From assembly GCA_030835825.1 (NCBI GenBank), contig JAURRA010000010.1, positions 1 through 64,000 on the forward strand: a stretch of DNA of 64,000 nucleotides, written 5' to 3'. The position numbers and the translations under genes are program-made. The notes under the pieces were generated by a model that was not told the DNA's origin, did no database searches, and saw only the letters and a program-made list of their open reading frames with translations. This stretch comes from Flavobacteriaceae bacterium. Lineage in GTDB: Bacteria; Bacteroidota; Bacteroidia; Flavobacteriales; Flavobacteriaceae. Shown piece after piece: positions 50,891 through 53,620 of this stretch. The number at the start of each line of letters is the position of its first letter. The stretch's first letter is position 1.

Positions 50891-51346
50891 GTGGATACAC
50901 TTAGTTATAAAACCATTTCAGCCAATAAAGCAACGATTGAAAAATCGTGGGTATTGGTTGACGCCGAAGGCCAAGCTTTAGGCCGTTTGTCATCTGTCGT
51001 TGCCATATTGTTGCGCGGCAAGCACAAAACAAATTATACACCTCATACAGACTGTGGTGACAACGTCATTGTTGTCAATGCGGATAAAATTACCTTGTCT
51101 GGTAAAAAATGGTCTGACAAATCTTACATCCGCCACACTGGATATCCAGGTGGGCAGCGGTCTCTAACAGCTGAAGAGATGTTCAAGAAAGATCCTACCC
51201 GTTTGGTAGAGAAGTCGGTAAAAGGTATGTTGCCTAAAAATAAACTTGGGGCTGAACTATTTCGCAACCTTAAAGTTGTAGCAGGGACAGATCACAAATA
51301 CGAGGCACAACAACCTAAGGTCATTAACCTTAACGATATCAAATAA
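50891..51346 (+). CDS. rplM: 50S ribosomal protein L13
   Basis: L13 is an early-assembling large-subunit protein. The 151 residues carry VLVDAEGQALGRLSSVVA, LLRGKHKTNYTPHTDCGDN, and KSVKGMLPKNKLG, all diagnostic. The start codon is GTG; the N-terminus MDTLSYKTISANKAT matches the form usual in Flavobacteriia, so the GTG is trusted. The stop and the rpsI start share one base (TAATG). The promoter at 50818-50848 drives the pair. Confidence 0.98.
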   Translation: MDTLSYKTISANKATIEKSWVLVDAEGQALGRLSSVVAILLRGKHKTNYTPHTDCGDNVIVVNADKITLSGKKWSDKSYIRHTGYPGGQRSLTAEEMFKKDPTRLVEKSVKGMLPKNKLGAELFRNLKVVAGTDHKYEAQQPKVINLNDIK

Positions 51347-51732
51347 TGGAAGTAATACACAAAATTGGACGTCGTAAGACAGCAGTTGCTCGTGCTTATG
51401 TCTCTAAAGGTAAAGGAAACATCACTATTAATAAGAAGGATATGGCAGACTATTTTGCCACTGCTCCTCTTCAATACAAGGTGACACAACCTCTAATGCT
51501 AACCGATAACGAAACATCTTTCGATATTAAAGTTAGTGTGTTGGGCGGCGGCGTTACAGGACAGGCAGAAGCCGTTCGATTAGCCATTTCTCGTGCTTTG
51601 TGTGAAATTAATGAAGACTATAGATCTATTCTAAAACCAGAAGGCTTATTGACTCGTGACCCAAGAATGGTGGAGCGTAAGAAATTTGGTCAGAAAAAAG
51701 CCCGTAAGAAATTCCAATTCTCTAAACGTTAA
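51346..51732 (+). CDS. rpsI: 30S ribosomal protein S9
   Basis: S9 reaches the ribosomal P site with its basic C-terminal tail. The 128 residues show IGRRKTAVARAYVSKGKG at the start, VLGGGVTGQAEAVRLAISRAL in the middle, and the basic end KKFGQKKARKKFQFSKR. It follows rplM in the universal L13-S9 order. Beyond it lies a 121-bp gap with a hairpin and the rpsB leader. Confidence 0.98.
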   Translation: MEVIHKIGRRKTAVARAYVSKGKGNITINKKDMADYFATAPLQYKVTQPLMLTDNETSFDIKVSVLGGGVTGQAEAVRLAISRALCEINEDYRSILKPEGLLTRDPRMVERKKFGQKKARKKFQFSKR

Positions 51733-51738
51733 TTGGAT

Positions 51739-51759
51739 AACAGTGTCAAAAACACTGTT
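51739..51759 (+). repeat. Hairpin after rpsI
   Basis: AACAGTGT (51739-51746) pairs perfectly with ACACTGTT (51752-51759) around a 5-base loop, beginning 7 bp after the rpsI stop. There is no T-run after it, so it may be a weak terminator, an RNA stabiliser or part of the rpsB leader. Confidence 0.5.
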
Positions 51760-51775
51760 GACTATTTAAACTCAA

Positions 51776-51848
51776 TTAGTTTAGCATCTAAATGGTCCAG
51801 GCCGCAACAAGCGCCACTAGATCATTGCTAAATCAGAACGTAAACTAA
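51776..51848 (+). promoter_or_regulatory. Structured rpsB leader with two alternative pairings
   Basis: One folding pairs TTTAGC (51780-51785) with GCTAAA (51827-51832), ATCTA (51786-51790) with TAGAT (51818-51822), TGG with CCA (51793-51795, 51814-51816) and CGC with GCG (51803-51805, 51811-51813). The other pairs TTAGTTTA (51776-51783) with TAAACTAA (51841-51848), ending 5 bases before the rpsB ATG. The two share 51780-51783, so they exclude each other. Also possible: TAGTTTAG at 51777-51784 as a -7-like promoter element. Confidence 0.5.
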
Positions 51849-51853
51849 ACACA

Positions 51854-52654
51854 ATGAAAAAAGTAGATGTAAAATCACTTCTAGAGGCAGGCGTACATTT
51901 TGGCCACCTCACCCGTAAATGGGACCCAAACATGGCACCATATGTCTATATGGAGCGCAATGGCATTCACATTATCAATCTTTACAAAACAGCCGCAAAA
52001 ATAGAAGAGGCCGCAACCGCAATGGCTAAAATTGCTTCTTCGGGTCGCAAGATTTTATTCCTTGCCACTAAAAAACAGGCTAAAGATATTGTTGCTCAAA
52101 CAGCATCGGACCTCAATATGCCTTACATCACCGAGCGTTGGCCTGGTGGGATGTTGACCAATTTTGTCACTATTCGTAAAGCGGTCAAGAAAATGTCTAT
52201 GATTGACCGTATGAAAAAAGACGGCACCTTCAACACATTGTCGAAAAAAGAAAGATTGCAAGTTGATCGTTTGAGAACAAAGCTCGAGAAAAACTTAGGA
52301 TCCATCTCAGAAATGACTAGACTGCCTGCAGCCCTTTTTATAGTCGATATCAAAAGAGAGCATATCGCCGTAAAAGAAGCTCAAAAACTGAACATTCCCA
52401 TCTTCGCCATGGTGGACACCAACTCTGACCCACGTCAAGTGGATTATGTCATACCAGCAAACGACGATGCTTCAAAATCTATCAGTAAGGTATTAGAATA
52501 CATCGCCTCCGGAGTAACTGAAGGACTTGCCGATCGCAAAGCCGAAGCAGATGAAGGTCAAACAGCAACAGCAGAGGCTGCAACAGAACCAGTAGCGGTC
52601 GTTAAAGCGACTAAAGCTAAAGCTCCAGAAGTTGAAGCTAAAGAAGAAGAATAA
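51854..52654 (+). CDS. rpsB: 30S ribosomal protein S2
   Basis: S2 joins the small subunit late and is needed for S1 binding. The 266 residues include LLEAGVHFGHLTRKWDPNM, ERWPGGMLTNFVTIR, and FAMVDTNSDPRQVDYVIPAND, all diagnostic. The C-terminus is extended by about 35 residues rich in Ala, Glu and Lys (from DEGQTATAE on), common in this phylum. It pairs with tsf 40 bp downstream. A structured leader precedes it. Confidence 0.98.
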   Translation: MKKVDVKSLLEAGVHFGHLTRKWDPNMAPYVYMERNGIHIINLYKTAAKIEEAATAMAKIASSGRKILFLATKKQAKDIVAQTASDLNMPYITERWPGGMLTNFVTIRKAVKKMSMIDRMKKDGTFNTLSKKERLQVDRLRTKLEKNLGSISEMTRLPAALFIVDIKREHIAVKEAQKLNIPIFAMVDTNSDPRQVDYVIPANDDASKSISKVLEYIASGVTEGLADRKAEADEGQTATAEAATEPVAVVKATKAKAPEVEAKEEE

Positions 52655-52694: not shown

Positions 52695-53519
52695 ATGACT
52701 AAAATTACAGCAGCCGAAGTCAATAAACTAAGACAGACAACAGGTGCCGGAATGATGGATTGCAAAAAAGCTTTAGTTGAAGCTGATGGCAATTTTGAAA
52801 CAGCCATTGAAATTTTAAGAAAGAAAGGTCAAAAAGTAGCCGCCAATCGTGCTGATCGTGAATCGAGCGAAGGTGTAGCTATGGCCAAAGTCAATGACAC
52901 CGCTACTCGCGGAGTTGTTGTTTCTCTCAACTGTGAAACTGATTTTGTTGCAAAGAACGATAGTTATGTTGCCTTAGCAACACGCATGTCAGAAATTGCT
53001 TTAAATCACGATAGTCTTGAAGCCTTTCTTGGAGCCGACTACGACGGAATGACTGTCGCTGAGAAGTTAACAGAACAAACTGGAGTCATTGGAGAGAAGA
53101 TTGAGATTGGCTCATTTAAAGTTTTAGAAGCGTCATTTGTGGGTTCATATATTCATGCTGGTAATAAGATTGCTACAATAGTTGGTTTGTCAGCCAATGT
53201 CGATGGTGCAGCAGTAGCTGCTCGAGACGTTGCCATGCAAGCCGCAGCTATGGATCCAATTGCATTAGATGAGCACGGTGTAGATGCAGCTACAATTGAA
53301 AAAGAAATTGAAATTGCGAAAGACCAGTTACGTCAAGAAGGTAAACCAGAAGCTATGTTAGATAATATTGCTAAAGGTAAACTCAATCGTTTTTTCAAGG
53401 ACAATACTCTGGTTAACCAAGATTTCATTAAGGACAGTAAAGTATGCGTAGCTGATTATGTGAAGTCAGTTAATGCAGACTTAAAAGTTGTTAGTTTTGC
53501 AAGGGTTGCACTCGGTTAA
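52695..53519 (+). CDS. tsf: Translation elongation factor Ts
   Basis: EF-Ts recharges EF-Tu by exchanging GDP for GTP. The 274 residues begin with a UBA-like domain (VNKLRQTTGAGMMDCKKAL), followed by NCETDFVAKNDSYVALA, which contacts EF-Tu, and a C-terminal segment with KVCVADYVKS. It is the last gene of rpsB-tsf; a strong intrinsic terminator follows 19 bp after its stop. Confidence 0.98.
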   Translation: MTKITAAEVNKLRQTTGAGMMDCKKALVEADGNFETAIEILRKKGQKVAANRADRESSEGVAMAKVNDTATRGVVVSLNCETDFVAKNDSYVALATRMSEIALNHDSLEAFLGADYDGMTVAEKLTEQTGVIGEKIEIGSFKVLEASFVGSYIHAGNKIATIVGLSANVDGAAVAARDVAMQAAAMDPIALDEHGVDAATIEKEIEIAKDQLRQEGKPEAMLDNIAKGKLNRFFKDNTLVNQDFIKDSKVCVADYVKSVNADLKVVSFARVALG

Positions 53520-53538: not shown

Positions 53539-53567
53539 AAAGCTCCGTTTTGCGGAGCTTTTTTTTT
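53539..53567 (+). terminator. Intrinsic terminator after tsf
   Basis: A perfect 9-bp stem, AAAGCTCCG with CGGAGCTTT (53539-53547 and 53553-53561) around a 5-base loop, runs directly into a T-tract. This is the clearest terminator in the window. Confidence 0.92.
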
Positions 53568-53620
53568 ACTAAAAAAACAAGATCTCTTTCAACCTATCTT
53601 AGCATTATCAAAATGAATCT

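Follow-up and report, generated by a model that had tools for sequence, protein, structure and literature searches.

The window, by which we mean the whole stretch of 64,000 nucleotides analysed here, contains 4 consecutive genes, rplM, rpsI, rpsB and tsf, which form an apparent operon (Table 1); the names rplM, rpsI and tsf are those that we presume for the respective open reading frames from our knowledge of such sequences. The rplM frame starts with GTG (position 50891), and tsf is followed by a terminator-like hairpin, AAAGCTCCGTTTTGCGGAGCTTT with a T-run, read from the sequence at approximately 53539-53568. Direct reading places the end of rpsI at 51732 and the rpsB ATG at 51854, with 121 nt between them, and it is in this interval that the leader described below is located.

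Table 1. Genes and leader parts in the window, with the basis or a remark for each.
Feature	Coordinates	Strand	Basis or remark
rplM	50891-51346	+	ORF; upstream gene, same apparent operon as rpsB
rpsI	51346-51732	+	ORF; upstream gene, same apparent operon as rpsB
9-bp hairpin of the window's genus	51738-51760	+	Predicted fold; occupies the place of the A-hairpin 1 module of relatives
P1, 5' strand, UUAGUUUA	51776-51783	+	R2 match and P1 covariation
P2, 5' strand, GCA	51784-51786	+	Partner UGC 51826-51828; R2 match
5' bulge UCUAA	51787-51791	+	Order-wide UCNAA; alignments A1-A3
P3, 5' strand	51792-51804	+	A51792-G51800, then G51801, C51803, G51804; C51802 opposes C51814
P3, 3' strand	51812-51825	+	A51816 bulged; A2 covariation and R2 match
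P2, 3' strand, UGC	51826-51828	+	R2 match
3' linker, UAAAUCAGAACG	51829-51840	+	Holds conserved GAACG 51836-51840
P1, 3' strand, UAAACUAA	51841-51848	+	5 nt before the start codon; direct reading and R2 match
rpsB (ribosomal protein uS2)	51854-52654	+	Gene presumed to be regulated by the leader
tsf (elongation factor Ts)	52695-53519	+	ORF; presumed to be co-regulated with rpsB

The initial annotation had read this interval as an RNA-level leader of rpsB in which a branched stem (51780-51832) competes with an 8-bp helix, and both pairings are present: TTAGTTTA (51776-51783) is perfectly complementary to TAAACTAA (51841-51848) over 8 bp, with 5 nt separating the helix from the rpsB ATG, and shares with the stem the UUUA at 51780-51783, which can alternatively pair with the linker UAAA (51829-51832). 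The covariance model R2 (see below) matches positions 51776-51848 with an E-value of 2.7e-16, and P3 of the window has a single mismatch, C51798 opposite A51819. The 138-nt leader has a predicted folding energy of −29.0 kcal/mol, compared with −20.2 ± 3.3 for shuffled sequences (z = −2.69; 1 of the 200 shuffles was as good), and its minimum-free-energy fold contains the stem, with UUUAGCA paired to UGCUAAA followed by the P3 hairpin. This open fold is more favourable than the fold closed by the 8-bp helix (P1); the margin is approximately 2 kcal/mol (−17.3 vs −15.3) when 73 nt are folded and 2.1-2.8 kcal/mol when 141 nt are. Across 227 sequences, predictions place the closed form a median of 3.1 kcal/mol above the open one in energy and favour it in 12%. 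The 9-bp hairpin at 51738-51760 is private to the genus of the window, the second genome of which (L002) retains it with a G-U pair.

Covariation of the leader core

Comparison of homologues supports a core consisting of one nested irregular stem, made up of P1, P2 (GCA/TGC), the 5' bulge UCNAA and P3. Alignment A2, from which R2 was built, comprises 58 of the 94 distinct cores and spans diverse sequences; the 36 cores left out were near-duplicates, carried an altered P3 tip or large insertions, or were others of the same genera. In A2, 91.8% of the cells are paired, changes on both sides occur in 15 of the 23 pairs, and double-change cells number 226, compared with 77 in shuffles and a maximum of 69 in slid versions. 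Alignment A3 (loci L149-L248, 100 of the 119 listed) was made to R2 and contains 458 double-change cells vs 148 expected, counts that lean towards the R2 structure. Absence of covariation had been put forward in the initial annotation as an argument against a leader; the base pairs of homologues covary strongly, and the proposal of an RNA-level rpsB leader withstood this test. As in r-leaders, the secondary structure has covariation support.

The signal is unevenly distributed over the core. In P1, the 4 outer pairs covary in A2 and the 4 inner pairs are invariant; the 5 central pairs never vary in A3, which is unable to test the 5 core P1 pairs because the DNA pattern itself fixes them. The invariant central pairs give no covariation evidence and could instead represent a sequence signal. 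Beyond the core, P1 extends outwards by a mean of 1.83 pairs, compared with 0.88 in shuffles (0/500; 179 distinct sequences). P2 is paired in 98.3% of cells in A2, with one-sided changes only, and in 89.6% in A3, whereas 11 of the 12 pairs of P3 covary in A2, with the bulged A and the C.C opposition being constant. The near-invariant letters of the element are GUUUAG-YAUCNAAA, UUG, and GAANGUAAAC. In approximately one-third of the first 30 loci of the family (L004, L006, L009, L010, L012, L017, L023, L026, and L030), AAGCC...GGAA and A-rich repeats, in some cases much expanded, stand in place of the P3 tip, with the extreme cases being L145 and L285; the P3 tip, including the bulged A and the C.C opposition, therefore seems dispensable.

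The suggested mutual exclusion of the 2 pairings held in part. It is real in the window, but it is lineage-specific, lacks compensatory support and is not supported as a conserved switch; moreover, formation of P1 rules out no more than the lowest pairs of the stem, whereas GCA/UGC and P3 can coexist with P1 in a nested arrangement, and it is this P1-P2-P3 form that is supported across the order. The extra pairs of the alternative (A2 columns 6-73, 7-72, and 8-71) fail in 9, 18, and 7 of the 58 sequences, respectively, with no compensation, and are near-constant within the family. RNAalifold applied to A1 (30 family sequences) returned only 6 pairs, those of the alternative stem and without compensatory change, a result which counts against the nested model within the family. 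Judging from these alignments, the UUUA-linker pairing may represent a local refinement rather than the core device. A local hairpin, UUUAG/CUAAA, was also considered and rejected, as it shows no change on both sides and is broken in 11 of the 58 A2 sequences.

In the family of the window, the core is preceded by a hairpin (hairpin 1), all 5 pairs of which covary. The sequence flanking this hairpin on the 5' side (A, usually UGUUG) pairs with A' in the linker (usually CAACA), and this pairing crosses P1, thereby forming a pseudoknot. Among the 72 sequences with CAACA, UGUUG stands upstream in 69 and CGUUG in 1; among the 14 with CAACG, CGUUG does so in 11 and UGUUG in 5 (counts that ignore relatedness). 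UGUUA is combined with UAACA in L066, L071, and L086. In the genus of the window, which has a different hairpin, A/A' is weak (approximately 4 pairs, read by eye) and the pseudoknot is degenerate, and in many other families there is no room for the module.

Distribution and association with rpsB

Within the Flavobacteriaceae, rpsB was detected in 145 of the 149 genomes, and the same leader is present in all 30 rpsB loci first listed for the family. R1, a covariance model built on the form seen in the family, had a single match in the genome of the window and matched 111 of the 296 genomes of the order; 40 of these matches, mainly from other families, were taken for further comparison. R2 found matches in 53 of the 345 genomes of the class and in 35 of the 296 drawn from the phylum. 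Scanning GTDB genomes with a DNA pattern yielded at least 119 stretches, with Bacteroides, Prevotella, Muribaculaceae, Capnocytophaga, and Chryseobacterium being represented among the matches listed. Titles of 80 of the 119 listed matches (L149-L228) all refer to Bacteroidota lineages, except for one metagenome-assembled genome labelled Chlorobiota (L187), in which the element also precedes rpsB and which reflects either a mislabelled bin or a wider spread. R3, a covariance model derived from 100 of the 119 listed pattern loci, matched 215 of the order's 296 genomes (170 of the 226 of high quality and 77 of the 91 genera) and, under strict filters, 63 of the 345 genomes of the class. Nearly all genomes have one match and a few have 2. 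Among 30 genomes of the class without a hit, 29 were found by protein search to encode rpsB, and a model search restricted to these rpsB loci recovered the copy of a single genome (G318), with the element not being found at the other 28 of 28. Other lineages of the class thus appear to lack the element, which is not universal in the class.

The gene next downstream of the element is rpsB in 69 of the 70 loci L031-L100 (L070 being cut before the gene is readable), in all 48 loci L101-L148 and in 116 of the 119 listed loci L149-L267, with the remaining 3 cut by locus or contig ends; the 3 locus sets overlap in some genomes. Upstream, rpsI precedes the element in 224 of the 225 distinct loci with enough upstream DNA. 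The element is, like other r-leaders, a conserved RNA structure consistently found upstream of an r-protein gene. The distance from the end of P1 to the rpsB start codon is 0-26 nt, with a median of 10 nt, which lies inside the expected initiation footprint, and is at most 20 nt in 225 of the 232 loci. In one small-genome family, with the sequence GUAAACAUG, P1 abuts the start codon and is able to include it. The rpsB AUG directly follows GUAAAC in L067, L072, L073, L075, L077, L083, L084, L087, L091, L092, L116, and L117, and P1 can therefore take in bases of the start codon.

Putative function and related leaders

We consider it likely that the element is an autogenous uS2 leader which represses translation by closing P1. 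In this mechanism, uS2 in excess over 16S rRNA would bind the leader stem, most likely in the neighbourhood of P1, P2, the UCNAA bulge and the GAANG linker, where the sequence is invariant, and would stabilise P1, which is otherwise weaker than the open fold. The closed P1 would place a helix in the initiation region and reduce translation of rpsB and probably also of tsf, whereas without free uS2 the leader would stay open and be translated. The 5' hairpin and the A/A' pseudoknot of the Flavobacteriaceae-type form would add stability to the closed state. A helix that is conserved despite not being the predicted minimum fits a state that needs a protein for its stabilisation, and it is for this reason that we infer a protein-stabilised P1. 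As regards the ligand, uS2 is suggested by position: rpsB is adjacent, uS2 represses rpsB-tsf translationally in E. coli (PMC10931766, partial text), and rplM-rpsI have a reported L13 candidate leader (PMC7247131, partial text).

The core was further compared with h26 and h35-h37, the regions of 16S rRNA contacted by uS2, and no conserved match was found in 4 Bacteroidota 16S genes, which were taken from other genomes; likeness to the rRNA site of the protein is frequent among r-leaders but is no requirement. In these same 4 genes, GUAAAC occurs 2-3 times per gene. AGUAUCC matches the 3' side of h26 in 1 of the 4 genes; since this match falls in a variable helix and is missing from the same place in the other 3, mimicry of 16S rRNA was rejected. 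In the assembly of the window itself (G000), no 16S rRNA gene was found.

Several other readings of the locus deserve consideration. It is very unlikely that the interval merely holds a promoter, or a site of RNA processing or stability, with no protein sensing. TAGTTTAG (51777-51784), raised in the initial annotation as a potential −7 box, does resemble the Bacteroidota −7 box, and scoring placed a sigma-70-like site at 51758-51787 (2 such sites were found where approximately one is expected by chance); in addition, the sequence core may be invariant because it serves as a nuclease or start signal. However, when the TA of the supposed box is exchanged in other families, the bases with which it pairs change as well (A2 pair 3-111 is AU in 34 and UA in 15 of the 58 sequences), its spacing from an upstream TTG differs as hairpin 1 becomes longer or shorter, and covariation is seen in the P3 pairs, for which a promoter has no need; the −7 box was accordingly abandoned. 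A regulator of rpsB-tsf that responds to another ligand, such as uS9, uL13, EF-Ts, a uS2-bS1 complex or an assembly factor, is also unlikely, if less so. The order rplM-rpsI-element-rpsB is nearly invariant, and because rpsI almost always precedes the element, the arrangement of the genes gives no means of telling uS2 from uS9, uL13, or EF-Ts as the ligand; furthermore, E. coli uS2 requires bS1 for good repression (PMC10931766, partial text). Against this, the element abuts rpsB, and rplM-rpsI appear to have a regulator of their own, given the L13 candidate leader reported in Bacteroidia (PMC7247131, partial text).

Possible, although doubtful, is a two-state switch in which UUUA exchanges the linker (open) for the start-proximal UAAA (closed), with this exchange being the regulatory step. 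Both pairings can form in the window and are nearly constant in the 30 family sequences, and their predicted energies in the window lie within 2-3 kcal/mol of each other, but the linker pairs break without compensation as detailed above, and an open form without linker pairing would do equally well. Such a switch can be regarded as a refinement of the uS2-leader reading, and both can hold together.

With regard to known leaders, the initial annotation could name no family, and Rfam 15 indeed has none that matches. At the gathering score, the window contains only a tRNA, and at relaxed E-values nothing meaningful was found in the window and 38 related loci. Among the closest known systems, the rpsB motif or t44 RNA (RF00127; Proteobacteria, Cyanobacteria, and some Firmicutes; the E. 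coli uS2 leader) is likewise located upstream of rpsB; RF00127, whose position in E. coli leads us to equate it with the published rpsB motif, has no match in the window or the 38 related loci, and R2 has none on the E. coli leader. The L13 r-leader of Bacteroidia (Eckert and others 2020; PMC7247131, partial text) shares the operon (rplM and rpsI, plus rpsB) and part of the lineage; however, it is assigned to L13 with rplM as the first regulated gene, whereas the present element lies not upstream of rplM but between rpsI and rpsB. The same source describes candidate r-leaders of the same kind in Flavobacteria and Bacteroidia for other genes (S4, S15, S16, and L19), and its table contains no S2 leader. 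More broadly, no Bacteroidota rpsB leader appears in the literature covered, in part, here (including PMC7247131, PMC2704228, PMC8040213, PMC2864571, PMC9723704, and PMC9976891), and an earlier report may exist.

A broader proposition, which we put forward as rather doubtful, is that a uS2 sensor RNA spread across much of Bacteroidota is unrelated in sequence to the rpsB motif and has arrived at, or retained, the same pseudoknot layout, with start-codon pairing being repressive in some clades and Shine-Dalgarno sequences playing no part. Bacteroidota ribosomes fail to recognise Shine-Dalgarno sequences (PMC9976891, partial text), and repression by such a leader would therefore have to use another route. 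The Flavobacterium johnsoniae rpsB reporters described in that source, which have no Shine-Dalgarno sequence, offer a ready test bed. If the uS2-leader reading is right, the element would supply a uS2 leader that had been missing from Bacteroidota, which hold a central place in the gut and in marine ecosystems; under the broader proposition, its family form would link the Bacteroidota and proteobacterial leaders through convergent or deeply related sensing of free uS2. The apparent likeness in layout poses a clean question, namely, convergence of protein sensors or common origin. In the rpsB motif, stem P1 is closed over 2 hairpins and the junction between them pairs with a 3' extension (PMC2704228, partial text); in the window's family the parts appear to follow one another in a matching order (A, hairpin 1, B, P2-P3, A', B'), with compensated A/A' that is degenerate in the window itself. 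Most of the other Bacteroidota families seen lack A/A', and B/B' in them forms a simple nested stem. The B/B' sequences are GUUUA/UAAAC in the present element and were read as GGGGU/ACCCC in the E. coli sequence.
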